A stretch of 64,000 nt of DNA from the NCBI RefSeq assembly GCF_004802635.2, contig NZ_CP046052.1:1-64000 (forward strand), given 5' to 3'. Of this stretch, positions 5,683-43,331 are shown one piece after another. Each line of letters begins with the position of its first letter. Within the stretch, counting starts at the first letter, position 1. Origin of the DNA: Methylocystis heyeri. Its GTDB lineage: Bacteria > Pseudomonadota > Alphaproteobacteria > Rhizobiales > Beijerinckiaceae. The notes beneath the pieces are model-generated. The model was not told the origin of the DNA. It saw only the letters and a list, made by a program, of their open reading frames with translations, and did no database searches. Both the position numbers and the translations under genes were made by a program.

Positions 5683-7011
5683 CTAGGTCAAGACGCTGGC
5701 TCCACGTTCGAAGGCGCCCCTGGGCCAGCTTATGGTTATGCGGGCTCCGGTTCGCGGAGATTCGATATTGCCTGCCTCGACCGTGGCGCCCGAGCGCTCC
5801 AGCAGGGTTTTGGCGATGAACAGCCCGAGGCCGAGGCCGAGGCCGTTTCCCGGGTCGCCCTTGAGCCGCCGACCGCTGGAATGGCCGCTGAGATAAGGGT
5901 CGCCGAGGCGGTCGAGTATGGCGGGCGCAAAGCCGGGGCCGTCGTCCTCGATAGTGATGATGACGAGGTTGGGCGTCCAGCGCGCCGCGATCTTGACCGT
6001 GGTCTTGGCGAAATCGACCGCGTTCTCGACCAGATTGCCGAGACCATAGAGCAGGCCGGGGTTGCGGGCGCAAATGGGGCTGGGCGCAGGGCCGTCCTTG
6101 ACGACGCTTATCTGCACGCCCTGATCGCGCTGCGGCTCCACGACCTCCTCGATCAGCGTATCGATCACCTGCATATTGAGGACATGCGCCTCATCGGTGC
6201 CGAGCGAAGCGAGTTTTTTCAATATCTCGCGGCAGCGGCGCGCCTCCTGCGCCAGCAGCGCCAGATCCTCCTGCATCGCCGGCGCCGCCGCCGGGGCGGA
6301 TTTCTGCATCTCGTTGATGATCAGCGTGATCGTGGCCAGCGGGGTGCCGAGCTCATGCGCGGCGGCGGCGGCCAGGCCGTCGAGCTGGGTGAGATGTTGC
6401 TCCCGGGCGAGCACGAGCTCCGTCGCCGAGAGAGCCCCCGCGAGCTGGCGCGCCTCGTCGGATACGCGGGCGGCGTAAATGCCGATGAAGGCGGCGCTCA
6501 GCACCAGGGCGGCCCATACGCCCATCCGGTACAGCAGCGGAAACTGCAGCGTTTCGCCGTTTCGCCACGGCAGGGGCTCGTAGTCCACGGTGAGGAAAGT
6601 GGCCGCCGCGATCATCAATATGCCGAGCAACAGCGTCAATTTGCGGGGCAGGGAGACCGCGGAAATCATGACCGGCGCGAGGAACAGCATCGCGAAGCTG
6701 TTTACGACGCCCCCGGTCAGGTAGAGCAGCGCGGCGAGCTGGAGAATGTCGAAGGCGAGCAGGGCGGCCGCTTCGGTGTCGTCCAGGCGGAAGCTGCGGG
6801 GAGTGCCGGCGCGCAGTGCGATATTGAGCGTCGCGGATGTGGCTATGGCGACGAAGCAAAGGCCGATCGGGAAGTCGAACTTCAGATAATAATAGACGTC
6901 GAGCATTGCGATGCTCTGGCCGATGATCGCAATCCATCGGAGCATCACCAGCGTGTCCACCCGCAGGTGGCGCGCCGCCTCGCCGAAATCGTCCTCGATC
7001 CGCTGCGTCAT
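5683..7011 (-). CDS. regB: Redox sensor histidine kinase RegB/ActS/PrrB family
   Basis: The 442-residue membrane kinase is the sensor of the RegB/RegA redox system. The N-terminal half has six hydrophobic segments. Between two of them lies GGVVNSF, at the site of the family's quinone-binding GGXXNPF motif, so the conserved Pro is Ser here. The phosphorylation box reads AAAAHELGTPLATI, and about 40 residues later RRCREILKKL holds the Cys that acts as the redox switch in Rhodobacter RegB. The ATPase domain has N (GNLVENAVDFA) and G (DDGPGF, GLGLGLF) boxes. I start at the ATG at 7011 because the family begins close to there. It is transcribed ahead of regA. Confidence 0.95.
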   Translation of the reverse strand: MTQRIEDDFGEAARHLRVDTLVMLRWIAIIGQSIAMLDVYYYLKFDFPIGLCFVAIATSATLNIALRAGTPRSFRLDDTEAAALLAFDILQLAALLYLTGGVVNSFAMLFLAPVMISAVSLPRKLTLLLGILMIAAATFLTVDYEPLPWRNGETLQFPLLYRMGVWAALVLSAAFIGIYAARVSDEARQLAGALSATELVLAREQHLTQLDGLAAAAAHELGTPLATITLIINEMQKSAPAAAPAMQEDLALLAQEARRCREILKKLASLGTDEAHVLNMQVIDTLIEEVVEPQRDQGVQISVVKDGPAPSPICARNPGLLYGLGNLVENAVDFAKTTVKIAARWTPNLVIITIEDDGPGFAPAILDRLGDPYLSGHSSGRRLKGDPGNGLGLGLGLFIAKTLLERSGATVEAGNIESPRTGARITISWPRGAFERGASVLT

Positions 7012-37436: not shown

Positions 37437-39392
37437 ATGATGATCTCGGTCACCTTCCCCGACGGAGCCGCACGCCAGTTCGAGCCGGGCGTTTCCGGCC
37501 TCGATGTCGCAAAGAGCATTTCGCCGTCCCTCGCCAAGCGCAGCGTCGCCATGACCATCGACGGCGTGCTGAGCGATCTCGCCAGCCCGCTGGACCGCGA
37601 CGCCAAAATCGAATTCGTCGGCCGCGAAGACCCTCGCGCCCTGGAGCTGATCCGACACGACGCCGCCCATGTGCTGGCCGAGGCGGTGCAGGAACTTTTT
37701 CCCGGCGCGCAAGTCACCATCGGTCCCGTGATCGAGAACGGTTTTTACTACGATTTCCACCGGGATACGCCTTTTACGCCCGAGGACCTTCCCGCAATCG
37801 AGAAGAAGATGCGCGAGATCGTCGCGCGCGACGAACCCATCGTTAAGGAAGTCTGGAGCCGCGAGCAGGCGACCGCCTATTTCCACGCCAAGGGAGAAGC
37901 CTTCAAGGGCGAACTGGTCGATGCGATTCCCGCCGGCGAAAAGCTCAACATCTATAAGCAGGGCCACTGGCTCGATCTCTGCCGCGGGCCCCATATGCCC
38001 TCCACCGCGAAGATCGGCGGAGCCTTCAAGCTGATGAAGGTGGCCGGAGCCTATTGGCGCGGAGACCACACCAGGCCGATGCTGTCGCGAATCTACGGCA
38101 CGGCTTTCGCCAAACAGGAAGATCTCGACGCCTATCTGCACCGCCTCGAGGAGGCCGAGCGCCGCGATCATCGCCGCCTCGGTCGCGAAATGGATCTGTT
38201 CCATTTCCAGGAGGAGGGGCCGGGAGCGATCTTCTGGCATCCCAAAGGCTGGGTGATGTTTCAGAAGGTCATCGCCTACATGCGCCGGCGCCTGTCGCTC
38301 GACTATAACGAGGTCAATGCGCCGCAGCTGCTCGACAAGACGCTGTGGGAGACCTCCGGTCATTGGCAATGGTTCCGCGAGAACATGTTCGTCTCGCAAC
38401 CGGCGCGCGATCAGACCGACGAAGATCGCCTTTACGCGATCAAGCCGATGAACTGTCCTGGCCATATTCAGATCTTCAAGCATGGCTTGAAGTCCTATCG
38501 AGATCTGCCGCTGCGCCTCTCGGAATTCGGCATTGTGCATCGCTATGAGCCGTCCGGCGCGCTGCACGGCCTGATGCGCGTGCGCGCTTTCACCCAGGAC
38601 GACGCGCATATCTTCTGCACGCAGGAGCAGATGGCGGAAGAGTGCCTGAAGATCAATGAGCTGATTCTCTCCACCTATCGCGACTTCGGCTTCGAGGACG
38701 TGCTGGTGAAGCTCTCGACGCGGCCCGAACATCGCGTCGGCGCGGATGAATTGTGGGACAGCGCCGAAGAGATCATGACGAAAGTGCTCGCCGACATTGA
38801 AGCGTCGTCGGGCGGTCGCGTGAAGACCGGAATCAACCCTGGCGAAGGCGCGTTCTACGGGCCGAAATTCGAATATACGCTGCGCGACGCGATCGGCCGC
38901 GAATGGCAATGCGGCACGACGCAGGTGGACTTCAATCTGCCGGGCCGTTTCGGCGCCTTCTACATTGGCGCGGACAGCGAGAAGAAAACGCCGGTGATGA
39001 TTCACCGCGCCATCTTCGGCTCGCTGGAGCGCTTCACCGGCATTCTCATCGAGCATTACGCCGGTCATCTGCCGCTGTGGCTCTCGCCGGTGCAGATCGT
39101 CGTCGCCACCATCACCCAGGACGCCGACGACTACGCCCTCGAAATCGCCGCCGCGGCGCGCAAGCTCGGGCTGCATGTGGAGCCGGATCTGCGCAACGAA
39201 AAAATCACCTACAAGGTGCGCGAGCATTCCCTGGCGAAGATTCCGGCGCTGCTGGTGGTCGGCAAGAAGGAGGCGGCAGAGCGGACGGTTTCGGTGCGCC
39301 GGCTCGGTTCGCAGGCTCAGACTTCCATGCCGCTCGACGAAGCTTTGGCGTCGCTGGTCGCGGAGGCCACGCCGCCCGACCTCAAACCGTAA
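37437..39392 (+). CDS. thrS: Threonyl-tRNA synthetase
   Basis: The 651-residue class II synthetase charges tRNA-Thr. Order of domains: TGS (1-62), the editing domain with [11 protein letters not shown] and [15 protein letters not shown], the catalytic core with motif 2 ([20 protein letters not shown]) and the zinc-binding Cys in [10 protein letters not shown], motif 3 near [11 protein letters not shown], and the anticodon-binding domain ([18 protein letters not shown]). ATG 37437 follows AAAAAGGAG at good spacing; the second ATG at 37440 is also possible. No T-box leader is visible, as expected in Proteobacteria. Confidence 0.97.
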
Positions 39393-39872
39393 GCTGAGTC
39401 GGGCGCGCGGGGGGAAGATGCGACGCTCCCCCCGCCGCGGCTCCCGGCGCGGGTTCCGCGGGCGCGCAAGCGATGACGGATTTCTGGTTCAAAGACCCTG
39501 GAGCGAACTCGCGCAGGCGGGGCCGAGGGGCTGTCGCAATGCGCTCCAAGCGAGCCGGGTGGGGCCAGCGTTTTTGCGGACATTAACCTTAATGGAAACA
39601 ACCGTCTTTCTGTTGGAACTGATTTTTATGCATGGGCAGCCCCGGTCGGAGCCCCGCGCCCGCAGGAGAAAAACCAGGGGTTTCAACGGGTAGCGGTCTC
39701 AAAATATCTTTTTATTAATGTACGGTGACGTCGGAGACGCGCGAGACCGCCGGAGCGCGTCGTGGTTAACGCACGGTAAATTCGTGAAAAGTTGAAGGTT
39801 TTGCGTTTACAAAATTTTAAGCATGGCTATTCTCGAACCCATGGCCCTATTCATTCAAAGAAGAGGTGCGAT
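39393..39872. other. Intergenic region before the RpfF-like gene
   Basis: These 480 bases contain a thrS-proximal hairpin (39407-39435), a short family-1-like fragment near 39535-39550 and an AT-rich segment (39690-39830) likely to hold the rpfF-like promoter. No supported gene is seen. Confidence 0.45.
39407..39435 (+). terminator. Hairpin downstream of thrS
   Basis: GCGGGGGGA (39407-39415) and TCCCCCCGC (39427-39435) form a 9-base stem with an 11-base loop, 14 bases after the thrS stop codon. There is no T-tract, so terminator function is uncertain. Confidence 0.4.
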
Positions 39873-40802
39873 ATGTCTTCCATTTCAACCGGCACATTGG
39901 CCGCTCCTAAAAGCGGCGAACTCAGCCCCGAGGAAGTGATCGGAGCCATCAGGCGCGAAGCGGGCGTGCTCCCTCAACTCGAAGTTTCCTACGAGCCCGC
40001 GATAAAAACCGTCTGGCTGACGTTGTGTCCCCAGCCGAAACCGGTTTTCACGCTGGATCTTCTGAATAGCCTGAACTCCGTTCAGAGGGCTATCTGGGCG
40101 CTATGGGGCAAGCCTGAAAATTACGCGTCCTCGCCGGTGCGTTTCGTGGTGCTTTGCGGCGACGGTCCGATTCTCACGCTCGGCGGAGATCTCGATTTCT
40201 ACCTCGATTGTCTGGCCCGGGGCGATCGCGCCGGCTTGCACGAATACGCCCGCGCCTCGGTGGAGGCGGTCTGCTGGAGCGCTTCCAGCCTGCGCGGGGC
40301 CGCTATCTCTCTGGCCGTGGTTCAGGGAAAGGCTTTCGGCGGCGGCATAGACGCGCCGTGCTCATGCAATCTGGTGGTGGCCGAGTCCCAGAGCATGTTC
40401 AGCTACCCTGAGGTGAAATTCAACCATTTCCCGATCACGGCGGTGAGCGTGCTGACGCGGCGGGTCGGTCAGAGGACCGCCAAGAGGATTCTGACTTCGG
40501 CAAAAGAGTTCACGGCCGAACAATTCGAAGGGATGGGCGCGCTGGACGCCGTCGTGCCGGAAGGCGAAGGCAGAAACTGGGTGCGGTCCTACGCCGCGGA
40601 AACATTGCCGATGCATTCCGCAAGGCTTTCGCTTTATACGGCGTTTCACCGTGTGGCCGGCAATTTCGAGGAAGAACTCAAGCCACTGGCCCAGATGTGG
40701 GCGGACAGCATGATGCGTCTCAATCCGATGCAGATATCGAGAATGCAGCGGCTGGCTCAGGCTCAGGAGCGCATATTGCAATACACCTTCGCGGGGGCCT
40801 AG
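39873..40802 (+). CDS. RpfF-like enoyl-CoA hydratase/thioesterase (DSF synthase family)
   Basis: The 309-residue crotonase aligns from memory over its whole length with Xanthomonas RpfF, which makes the cis-2-unsaturated fatty-acid signal DSF. Shared blocks are TLGGDLDFY (oxyanion hole, 102-110), VVQGKAFGGGID (149-160), YPEVKFNHFP (178-187), SAKEFTAEQFEGMGALDAVV and the C-terminal MWADSMMRL. RpfF uses two Glu: the first (E141) is Asp160 here, the second (E161) is retained as Glu180, with the same 20-residue spacing. ATG 39873 follows AAGAGG. A c-di-GMP enzyme gene is next on the same strand. Activity and product are inferred. Confidence 0.8.
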   Translation: MSSISTGTLAAPKSGELSPEEVIGAIRREAGVLPQLEVSYEPAIKTVWLTLCPQPKPVFTLDLLNSLNSVQRAIWALWGKPENYASSPVRFVVLCGDGPILTLGGDLDFYLDCLARGDRAGLHEYARASVEAVCWSASSLRGAAISLAVVQGKAFGGGIDAPCSCNLVVAESQSMFSYPEVKFNHFPITAVSVLTRRVGQRTAKRILTSAKEFTAEQFEGMGALDAVVPEGEGRNWVRSYAAETLPMHSARLSLYTAFHRVAGNFEEELKPLAQMWADSMMRLNPMQISRMQRLAQAQERILQYTFAGA

Positions 40803-40815
40803 CGCCAAAGACGAA

Positions 40816-40855
40816 GCCTGTTCCCAAAACCGCTTCGCACTTTTTGGGAACAGGC
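40816..40855. repeat. Perfect hairpin repeat, family 3, copy b
   Basis: GCCTGTTCCCAAAA (40816-40829) and TTTTGGGAACAGGC (40842-40855) are perfect 14-base arms around a 12-base loop. It starts 14 bases after the RpfF-like stop. It resembles widespread rhizobial intergenic palindromes and the half copy at 28479. It may end the rpfF-like transcript. Confidence 0.75.
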
Positions 40856-40970
40856 TCTAGCAAGCGCGAGCGTTCCTCGTTGGGTTGCATTTTATTCGGT
40901 TACGGCGTCTTTACTTTTTGTCGATACCGTTGAGCGACGGACTTTCCGTTCCCATGGCGGTGGCCAAGTA

Positions 40971-43331
40971 ATGCATTCAGCGAATTCCGAACCCGCTAGG
41001 TTTACCGTTGGGCTTTTTTCGTTGCGCGGCTATCTACATAGCGCGTATCGGGAGGCCGGCGTGTCTGTTAAAGATTTAGCGAGCTATAGAAACCTGGTTG
41101 CTTTTCTCTTTGCTTCTCCCGCATCCCTGATTCTTGGGCTGGTCTGCAGTTGCTTGCTTCCTTATCTTTGTTGGCAGGCGAGTGGAGACAATTTATTCGA
41201 GCTGCTGTTTTTCGTTTCGCTGCTGATCGGCGCCCTGCGGCTTTGCACCCTGGTCAGATATCATAGCAGGGACCACACCGGCGAGGATGAGGCGACCACC
41301 CGTTGCTGGGATAGGGAGTTCGTGCTGGGCGCTACGGCCATGAGCGCCGCTCTCGGCGCAACAGGCTATTTCGCGATCGCAGAGACGGCCAGCGCGTCGG
41401 TGCATTTGACGATCGTGGCGTACAACGTCGCTCTGGCCTCCGCCTATGTCGCGAGAAACGCCGCCCGCCCCAAATTCGTGCTGGTTCAAATCCTGACGAT
41501 CATGGCGCCGTTTTGCCTCGCGCTGATGGGGTCTGGCGACAGGTATTACAATTATGTCGGGTTATCGGGAATACTTTTCATCGCGGGAAACGGCGTGGTC
41601 GCATGGAGCGTCCACCGCAATCTCGTCGCGCTGATTGAGGCCAAGAAAACCGCCGATCGGCTTTCTAGCCAGCTTCACCTTCAAAACCTCACCCTCGACG
41701 CCGCCATCAACACCATGCCGCACGGACTGGCGATGTTCGACGAGAATCTCGATCTCGCGGTCGCCAATGAGCAGCACTATTCTCTCTTCTCGCTACGAGA
41801 GCCGTCCATTCAGAAGACTTTCGCCGCCACGGAGAGGCATCTCGTCAAGTCGCGCCTGATCTCCAGGGCCGACGCCCTGTCCCTGTTCCACGCCTGCCAG
41901 GTAAGCCTGAAGGAGCGACGACCTTCGAACATCGAACTCGTCACCTATTCCGGCATGAATCTGGTCGTAAGCTTCACCCCCGCTCTTGAAGGGGGTGTTC
42001 TTATGTTGACGGAGAACGCCACCGAGCGCAGGACCGTGGAGGCGAAGATCGAGAGGCTGGCGCGCTTCGACATTCTCACCGGCCTGCCGAACAGGCACGA
42101 GTTCGGCCTGCGCTTGTCGAGGGCTTTCGACGCGCTCGCCGGCGGTGGGCCCGCTTTTGCGGTTTTCTACGTCGATCTCGACGGCTTCAAGCGAGTCAAC
42201 GACACTCTGGGGCATGAAATCGGCGACGAACTTCTGGTCGAGGTCTCCAAACGGCTGCATCGCAAGAAGGAGACCGAAGCGATCATCAGCAGGCTGGCCG
42301 GGGACGAATTCGCCGCCATCCACCTCGTCAGTCATCCTGACGCCACTCTATCCATCGCGCAGGAGATTACGTCGGCTCTCAAGGAGCCGTTCTCCCTCGG
42401 CAACAACACCGTCCGGATCAGCGCCAGCATCGGCATCGCCTTCGCCCCCCTGCATGCCACGACGCCAGAAGCCGTCCTCAGGCACGCGGACATCGCGCTC
42501 TACCGCGCCAAGGCGAGCGGTCGCGGAAGCACGGTGATCTACGACGAGAGCATGGCTGCGGAACTGAACGAGCGCGTCAGCCTCGAGGCCGATCTCGCCG
42601 CGGCGGCGGCGGAAAGCGCTTTCGAGCTCCATTACCAGCCGATATACGATCTCGCCACGGGCAAGGCGGTCTCCTACGAAGCCCTGATGCGTTGGCGCCA
42701 CCCCACCCGCGGCTATGTGTCGCCGAGCACCTTCATTCCCATTGCGGAGCAGACCGGCCGCATCGAACAACTCGGCTGTTTCGCGATCCGCCAGGCCTGC
42801 GCGGACGCCGCGTCCTGGCGCGACGACACCAGTGTATGCGTCAATGTCTCGGTTTTGCAGTTCCGCAATCCGGGCGTCCTCATGCAATGCGTCGAAAGCG
42901 CGCTCGCCAGCACGGGTCTCGACCCGCGGCGGCTTACGCTGGAAATCACCGAAAGCCTTTTCATCGACGAATTCGAGTCCACCTTGGGCACGATCGAGCG
43001 GTTGAAGGCCCTGGGCATCAAGTTTTCTCTCGACGATTTCGGCACGGGTTATTCTTCGCTCTCCAACCTGAGCCGGCTCCCGCTCTCGATCGTCAAGATT
43101 GATCAATCGCTCTCGAGAGACATCACCTTCAACACGACCTCCTACGCCGTGGTCGAAGCGGTTTGCTCGCTCGCAAAACGCATCGACATGATCGTCGTTG
43201 TCGAAGGGATCGAGACGCAGGCGCAAAAATTGGCGATCCAATCGCTCGGCGCGGACCGTGGTCAGGGATGGCTGTTCGGGAAGCCGGAGCCGGCCCGCCA
43301 TATATCGGAGCAGCAGAGGCGCGCCGCCTGA
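40971..43331 (+). CDS. Membrane PAS-GGDEF-EAL protein (c-di-GMP turnover)
   Basis: This 786-residue protein has about six N-terminal membrane helices (35-210), a PAS-like domain (about 240-345), a GGDEF domain with AGDEF at 443-447, and an EAL domain with YEALMRW (E570) and DDFGTGYSS plus VVEGIE. The EAL metal and catalytic residues look complete, so phosphodiesterase activity is likely; AGDEF instead of GGDEF may still allow cyclase activity. An in-frame GTG at 41061 has a stronger GGGAGG site than the ATG at 40971, so the first 30 residues may be absent. It follows the RpfF-like gene by 168 bases. Confidence 0.88.
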   Translation: MHSANSEPARFTVGLFSLRGYLHSAYREAGVSVKDLASYRNLVAFLFASPASLILGLVCSCLLPYLCWQASGDNLFELLFFVSLLIGALRLCTLVRYHSRDHTGEDEATTRCWDREFVLGATAMSAALGATGYFAIAETASASVHLTIVAYNVALASAYVARNAARPKFVLVQILTIMAPFCLALMGSGDRYYNYVGLSGILFIAGNGVVAWSVHRNLVALIEAKKTADRLSSQLHLQNLTLDAAINTMPHGLAMFDENLDLAVANEQHYSLFSLREPSIQKTFAATERHLVKSRLISRADALSLFHACQVSLKERRPSNIELVTYSGMNLVVSFTPALEGGVLMLTENATERRTVEAKIERLARFDILTGLPNRHEFGLRLSRAFDALAGGGPAFAVFYVDLDGFKRVNDTLGHEIGDELLVEVSKRLHRKKETEAIISRLAGDEFAAIHLVSHPDATLSIAQEITSALKEPFSLGNNTVRISASIGIAFAPLHATTPEAVLRHADIALYRAKASGRGSTVIYDESMAAELNERVSLEADLAAAAAESAFELHYQPIYDLATGKAVSYEALMRWRHPTRGYVSPSTFIPIAEQTGRIEQLGCFAIRQACADAASWRDDTSVCVNVSVLQFRNPGVLMQCVESALASTGLDPRRLTLEITESLFIDEFESTLGTIERLKALGIKFSLDDFGTGYSSLSNLSRLPLSIVKIDQSLSRDITFNTTSYAVVEAVCSLAKRIDMIVVVEGIETQAQKLAIQSLGADRGQGWLFGKPEPARHISEQQRRAA

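Follow-up and report, generated by a model that had tools for sequence, protein, structure and literature searches.

An RpfF-group crotonase with an Asp/Glu acid pair, encoded beside a membrane GGDEF-EAL protein in Methylocystis heyeri and its relatives

The first 64,000 nucleotides of the Methylocystis heyeri contig NZ_CP046052.1 (the window) encode a crotonase, P0001, which resembles RpfF, the synthase of diffusible fatty-acid signals, but has Asp where RpfF has the first of its two catalytic Glu residues. The next gene, 168 bp downstream on the same strand, encodes a membrane-bound PAS-GGDEF-EAL protein, P0002, with the domains of a cyclic di-GMP (c-di-GMP) enzyme. The locus raises three questions: whether P0001 is an RpfF-type protein at all, whether the Asp is anything other than a stray substitution, and whether the two genes belong together.

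The crotonase and its acid pair

A phmmer search of the PDB with P0001 gave 7zq7, 3m6m, 6dgn and 5fus as the top four matches (E 8e-34 to 4e-28), aligned over nearly the full length, as an earlier sequence-only reading of this DNA had claimed for RpfF. The next matches, DspI (5wyb) and an ordinary hydratase, came at 2e-12, about 16 orders of magnitude weaker. A predicted model of P0001 (mean predicted local distance difference test score 88.5) was compared with the folds in the PDB; the best 12 chains were RpfF or DfsA (E 5.5e-20 to 4.8e-18), with ordinary hydratases following from 6.2e-14. A 69-row tree separated the 66 RpfF-like members from three hydratases of the window's genome with a support of 100 in the Shimodaira–Hasegawa-like approximate likelihood ratio test (SH-aLRT). 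The sequence ranking, the predicted fold and the tree rule out an ordinary enoyl-CoA hydratase, and the window crotonase is an RpfF-group protein.

Two family profiles were also applied. Against PRK08788 (NF006452, cut-off 177 bits) P0001 scored 207.5 bits, three other proteins with the same GGGID motif scored 175.4 (from Bosea, under the cut-off), 180 and 204 bits, Burkholderia cenocepacia RpfF 412 bits and the Bosea-type protein G011 166 bits. Against NF053515, the NCBIfam RpfF equivalog with a cut-off of 550 bits, P0001 scored 131 bits and the Xanthomonas-like protein L135 580 bits. The failure of P0001 on this second profile was dropped as an argument against membership once B. cenocepacia RpfF, taken as a control, failed too with 188 bits; the cut-off is narrow, and the failure therefore says little. 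As the GGGID scores lie at the edge of one cut-off and the other excludes a B. cenocepacia RpfF, annotation through these profiles can miss or misname GGGID proteins.

When P0001 was aligned with the four PDB entries, the Glu of their GGGFE motif stood opposite Asp160 and the Glu of PEV/PEI opposite Glu180. The acid pair is thus Asp160/Glu180, as had been read from the sequence, in place of the two Glu (E141 and E161) expected of RpfF. The two positions were then read in 146 distinct RpfF-like rows, drawn from family, class, phylum and order samples together with a contig scan and plasmids. The first holds Asp in 59 rows and Glu in the other 87; the second holds Glu in 145 rows and Asp in a single Glu-type row. 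The Asp rows form one clade of 59 tips with no Glu-type row inside it (support 0.89, and SH-aLRT 99 on 18 rows). Its stem is long (0.81 in the tree with all 59 tips, 1.12 in the 69-row tree), and it stands as a separate branch inside the RpfF-like set.

Three further changes accompany every Asp. Residue 159 is Ile in all 59 Asp rows and Phe, Leu or Trp in Glu-type rows; residue 185 is His in all 59 and Leu in 74 of the 87 Glu-type rows; and the Gly after FP, present in 86 of the 87 Glu-type rows and replaced by Ala in the remaining one, is deleted in all 59. As they occur together without exception, the swap is part of a coordinated remodelling around the acids and not a stray substitution. 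Nor is Asp160 a matter of chance, since it is invariant in the clade and the gene pair is conserved (see below). The oxyanion glycines are retained, G105 and G157 of P0001 standing for G86 and G138 of RpfF, whose role is described in PMC9040811 (this and the other papers cited by PMC number are drawn on in excerpt). Judged by spacing, the deleted Gly would correspond to Gly172 of the mammalian hydratase, a correspondence that we infer ourselves; that position can hold a catalytic acid in isomerases (PMC13126182). The GGGID proteins form a distinct clade and so a new subfamily with Asp as its marker, which was one of the possibilities that the sequence-only reading had raised.

The clade extends to another family, as Jiella (Aurantimonadaceae) carries the Asp type. 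Within the window's genus it was found in one of 16 genomes, that of the window, with the Glu type in 11 and neither in four; these types were assigned by identity, and Glu was actually read in seven of the 11. Across the order (397 genomes sampled), a profile of the Asp type gave three matches at 496 to 549 bits before a drop to 225, and all 11 rows fetched from there down were Glu-type. On the effect of such an exchange, the open-access literature held nothing useful on E144D/E164D mutants among the matches listed, and catalytic-residue terms are absent from PMC8659556.

Altered acids might also mean that catalysis has been given up. The GGGID protein would then be non-catalytic, or nearly so, and serve as a protein switch which docks onto the membrane sensor in the way known for RpfF with RpfC or with the FI domain of RpfR, perhaps while holding an acyl ligand. 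In Xylella, sensing of the diffusible signal factor (DSF) persists with an RpfF whose two Glu are both replaced (PMC4504480, PMC4958263), RpfF does bind the RpfR FI domain (PMC6361424), and all 59 rows of the clade have both lost a catalytic Glu and deleted the Gly after FP. We nevertheless regard such a switch as unlikely, for the Asp is still acidic and is invariant, as are Glu180 and the oxyanion glycines, positions at which drift would be expected had catalysis been lost, and the partner shows no FI domain.

The membrane partner and the gene pair

The second protein had been described from its sequence as a six-helix PAS-GGDEF-EAL protein, and Pfam, a predicted model and hydropathy agree. 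Pfam finds the three domains in that order (Table 1). The model has six long helices, from residues 50, 74, 107, 142, 167 and 191, and hydropathy peaks likewise support six membrane helices; VIA-align of the whole model covered the GGDEF-EAL part only (residues 365-786). A BLAST comparison of P0002 with B. cenocepacia RpfR was significant only over residues 349-776, with 40% identity over GGDEF-EAL, and showed no FI domain in P0002, whose N-terminus is the six-helix membrane region. A membrane-bound RpfR orthologue is ruled out, as significant similarity begins only at GGDEF and the PAS domain does not align.

Among 22 aligned partners the catalytic motifs of the EAL domain are invariant. The GGDEF motif is intact in 20 of them and reads AGDEF in the window protein and in that of Methylocystis sp. 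KS32, the nearest named relative (85% identity for the crotonase, 76% for the partner). The RxxD pattern of the inhibitory site is visible in Bosea rows and lost in the window partner. Given the AGDEF motif and the lost RxxD, P0002 would be expected to act mainly as a phosphodiesterase in the window species, with little cyclase activity.

A contig scan for exact peptide patterns taken from P0001, a search biased towards close relatives, found 51 loci, mostly from Bosea. In all 51 a membrane GGDEF-EAL gene adjoins the crotonase gene on the same strand, although in two (L082 and L085) the order is reversed and the sensor lies upstream. The partner aligns with P0002 in one stretch in 48 of these loci and not in the other three. 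In 248 genomes of the family, a sensor match lies within 4 kb of 28 of the 29 Asp-type genes, the exception (G210) being a gene cut by the contig end. In this sample Asp-type means at least 44% identity, Asp having been read in 28 of the 29 and not in the partial G173; Glu-type means lower identity, Glu having been read in fetched rows only, where every row showing the motif had Glu. The counts comprise 95 crotonase rows, G173 among them and the rest with E of about 1e-24 or lower, and 89 sensor rows with E of about 1e-8 or lower; weaker rows of both kinds and the partial G238 were set aside. Counted from the sensor side, a crotonase stands beside all 22 sensors of at least 34% identity (over residues 1-348), 30 of 35 in a second identity tier and five of 32 in the weakest. 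For four of the five unpaired second-tier sensors, wider stretches held no crotonase either, three of the stretches ending near or at contig ends.

The flanking genes were compared in 20 representative loci (frames of at least 150 residues, E up to 1e-15, 12 largest clusters). Only the crotonase and the sensor recur in all 20. The other clusters that reach 10 loci or more are alternative frames of the same two genes, and the rest occur in at most seven loci, one being ABC-transporter ATPases and most others having no assigned family. Six neighbours in the window were used as probes: five, including threonyl-tRNA synthetase, matched only KS32 beyond the window's own loci and one matched nothing. 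EAL stretches number 13 and GGDEF stretches 20 in the 4.7 Mb of the M. heyeri genome, too few for chance to explain credibly that they adjoin the crotonase again and again. The crotonase is genetically coupled to the membrane GGDEF-EAL protein and the pair is a conserved unit. The sequence-only reading has thus held as to the grouping of the crotonase away from hydratases, the alignment of Asp160 with E141 and the conservation of the neighbour within the GGGID clade.

The pair could have stayed together merely by descent in a few related genera, as inherited baggage with no functional tie. Most of the 51 loci are indeed from Bosea or close to it, so that the effective sample is far below 51. 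This explanation is nevertheless most improbable: the flanks vary between lineages and the pair stays, the gene order is reversed in two loci, related sensors also accompany Glu-type crotonases from other branches, and three loci (L056, L080 and L081) have a partner from another, PAS-less branch. In a tree of partners whose Asp side comprised the window and 17 other loci, 15 of these 18 form one clade, and the partners of the three loci named, in which Pfam found no PAS domain, group with three unpaired and similarly short proteins. The pairing has therefore survived an exchange of partner or the loss of a domain. No input domain except the six-helix one occurs in every partner, and for this reason it is favoured as the sensor.

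The pairing extends beyond the Asp type. Within 4 kb, on either strand, a related membrane sensor is found for 29 of the 66 Glu-type crotonases in the family, the gap being a few to about 25 bp in L115 and L116 and a slight overlap in L119 (frame coordinates). This rules out the Asp and the membrane partner as one linked innovation. The proposal of a different, membrane-bound arrangement accordingly stands in part, in that the partner is a membrane protein and not RpfR, and fails in so far as the arrangement was to be tied to the Asp.

The upstream element and the proposed module

Upstream of the crotonase gene lies the sequence TTTACA-N5-TTAA. It is present within 150 bp of the start, with start codons estimated by script, in 48 of 52 Asp-type genes (the window and L039-L089), at -57 to -74 in 43 of the 48, and in none of 1991 random 150-base stretches of the same loci. 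Because such stretches are mostly coding, the test was repeated upstream of other long frames, with no match in 328. The strict form is lacking in L056, L085, L088 and L089. TTAA-N7-TTAA with one mismatch is present in 50 of the 52 upstream regions, compared with six of 1982 random stretches and eight of the 328 other upstream regions, and TTAACC in 48 of the 52. Since most of the 52 genes are from Bosea, we put the number of independent lineages at about five. In Glu-type paired genes the hits are scattered, three of eight being within 250 bp. A scan of the window from 39390 to 41000 gave a single promoter-like match, whose -35-like hexamer the element overlaps. For CtrA, a full site TTAA-N7-TTAA, an ungapped TTAACCAT variant and activating sites near -35 have been described (PMC6180460). 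The upstream element is thus CtrA-box-like, matching both the full site and the TTAACCAT variant, and is a putative CtrA site.

Between the two genes, a strong hairpin lies just 3' of the crotonase stop codon; the stretch 40800-40870 folds with -30.4 kcal/mol (z -4.15). At the corresponding place KS32 (L039, about 6973-6998) also has a strong hairpin, of unrelated sequence. The hairpin was considered as a high-copy repeat and this was rejected, since 19 bases from its right arm and flank have only two exact occurrences in the genome. The sequence AAACATTTACCT, with up to two mismatches, occurs in the intergenic gap of 13 of the 14 Bosea-type loci checked (e.g. L043:6956) and may serve the sensor gene as a promoter. 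In the window and KS32 the gap has another stretch in common, GGTTACGGCGTCTTTACTTTT.

Table 1. Features of the crotonase/sensor locus (window positions) and further crotonase-like frames in other loci
Feature	Position	Strand	Basis or remark
RpfF-like crotonase, GGGID subfamily, 309 aa (P0001)	39873..40802	+	open reading frame, profile and PDB searches, model, trees
Asp160 codon (GGGID), opposite RpfF Glu141	40350..40352	+	alignment
Glu180 codon, opposite RpfF Glu161	40410..40412	+	alignment
His185 codon, invariant across the GGGID clade	40425..40427	+	alignment; Gly deletion after Pro187
TTTACA-N5-TTAA, CtrA-full-site-like, one mismatch to TTAA-N7-TTAA	39806..39820	+	overlaps -35-like hexamer
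Second TTAA-type match, TTAACGCACGGTAAA, one mismatch	39766..39780	+	motif scan
Strong hairpin 3' of crotonase stop	40813..40857	+	folding of 40800-40870
Membrane PAS-GGDEF-EAL protein, 786 aa (P0002)	40971..43331	+	open reading frame, Pfam domains, model
Six-helix membrane domain and signalling helix, residues 36-248	41076..41714	+	model, hydropathy; no Pfam family
PAS_7, residues 246-357	41706..42041	+	Pfam; missing in L056, L080 and L081 partners
GGDEF domain, residues 365-519, motif AGDEF in window protein	42063..42527	+	Pfam, alignment
EAL domain, residues 541-772, catalytic motifs intact	42591..43286	+	Pfam, alignment
Further crotonase-like frames	L083:1123-2013; L115:3560-4378; L116:10066-10812; L127:10237-11010		flank clusters

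On balance we consider it probable that the two genes form a CtrA-timed fatty-acid-signal/c-di-GMP module with a remodelled synthase. By analogy with the biochemistry of RpfF, and with both oxyanion glycines kept, the synthase would bind an acyl-ACP (acyl carrier protein) or acyl-CoA thioester and would release an unsaturated or hydroxylated free fatty acid. The neighbouring protein could sense this hydrophobic product, the six-helix membrane domain being the most likely site of sensing and the PAS domain a modulator, and sensing would change the c-di-GMP phosphodiesterase output of the EAL domain. Transcription of the synthase would be timed by CtrA. A more specific version, which is tentative and which we hold to be rather doubtful, is that the GGGID signal is not a classical cis-2-enoic DSF and is read in the bilayer by the six-helix phosphodiesterase, with its synthesis gated by CtrA. 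The point at which the proton is taken or given would then have moved, owing to the shorter acid, the missing Gly and the added His.

Several observations weigh against such a module. In DspI the first Glu is the more important of the pair and E126A abolished swarming (PMC5834635), so that with Asp at this more sensitive position activity could be lost or changed. The 168-bp gap, the strong hairpin and the reversed order in two loci mean that one transcript is not assured. The sensor type also works without a crotonase, since five of the 35 sensors in the second tier and 27 of the 32 in the weakest are unpaired, and an Asp-type crotonase on a 692-kb Bosea plasmid (L180:5971-6915) has no GGDEF-EAL within 6 kb. 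As to the receptor, hhalign of the P0002 PAS domain with the DSF-binding PAS domain of RpfR gave a probability of 1.2% with a single-sequence template, and a phmmer search of the PDB with this PAS domain returned no RpfR chain. Finally, four of the 20 loci have another crotonase-like frame close to the pair (Table 1), which makes a metabolic context conceivable. Pfam ECH_1 scores that of L083 at 265.9 bits and that of L115 marginally, at 27.7 against 27.

The plasmid-borne crotonase gene of L180 adjoins a DNA cytosine methyltransferase gene.

These extra frames bear on the proposal that the GGGID protein is a metabolic acyl-CoA hydratase or isomerase, using its Asp for example in the manner of a dienoyl isomerase, with the c-di-GMP regulator merely a neighbour. 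Asp at the first acid position does occur in dienoyl-CoA isomerase. The acid pair is also what separates hydratases from isomerases according to the work on DspI (PMC5834635). A metabolic enzyme is still quite unlikely, given the strong membership of the RpfF group and a sole 20/20 recurrent neighbour which is a signalling enzyme, despite the small number of EAL and GGDEF stretches in the genome.

That the clade usually stands beside a membrane c-di-GMP protein in several groups of soil and water bacteria suggests a distinct branch of fatty-acid signalling. Among the matches listed, the open-access literature held no description of the GGGID subfamily or of the crotonase/membrane GGDEF-EAL pair, nor of such fatty-acid signalling systems in Hyphomicrobiales. 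If the signalling module is real, c-di-GMP-tied fatty-acid signalling extends into Hyphomicrobiales, including Methylocystis and Bosea, and through the CtrA-like element the signal would be linked to the regulator which governs cell cycle and motility in these bacteria. The partner, with six helices fused to GGDEF-EAL and an optional PAS domain, is a compact candidate receptor, and the GGGID clade is a natural experiment on the role of the first catalytic acid of RpfF. Were the signal non-classical as well, this would be a third fatty-acid-signalling architecture beside RpfC/RpfG and RpfR.

Comparison with known systems

One close parallel is the RpfF/RpfR system of Burkholderia, Cronobacter and relatives, in which an RpfF-group crotonase, the synthase of the Burkholderia diffusible signal factor (BDSF), is likewise found beside a PAS-GGDEF-EAL protein, its soluble receptor. 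The crotonase fold is the same and the GGDEF-EAL parts are similar to the extent given above, but the window crotonase has the Asp/Glu acid pair, the Gly deletion and His185, and its partner is membrane-bound, without an FI domain and without an alignable PAS domain. Whereas rpfF and rpfR are convergent genes (PMC6361424), the GGGID pair is in tandem on one strand in all 51 loci.

With the RpfF/RpfC/RpfG system of Xanthomonas the GGGID pair shares an RpfF-group synthase, and a receptor which binds the signal at the membrane has also been reported (PMC5391125). The GGGID membrane partner, however, itself carries GGDEF-EAL, and no third family is found in more than seven of 20 loci.

Similarity to DspI of Pseudomonas aeruginosa, a crotonase implicated in a fatty-acid signal as is proposed here, is much lower, and DspI has two Glu (PMC5834635). 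Among named families, PRK08788 includes P0001 and has the GGGID members at its edge. The same two-gene logic is seen in the pairs of a Glu-type RpfF-like crotonase and a membrane PAS-GGDEF-EAL protein in other members of the family, for example in L115, L116 and L119; these differ in keeping the Glu and the FPGMGA sequence, and their sensors are 24-31% identical in the N-terminal part.

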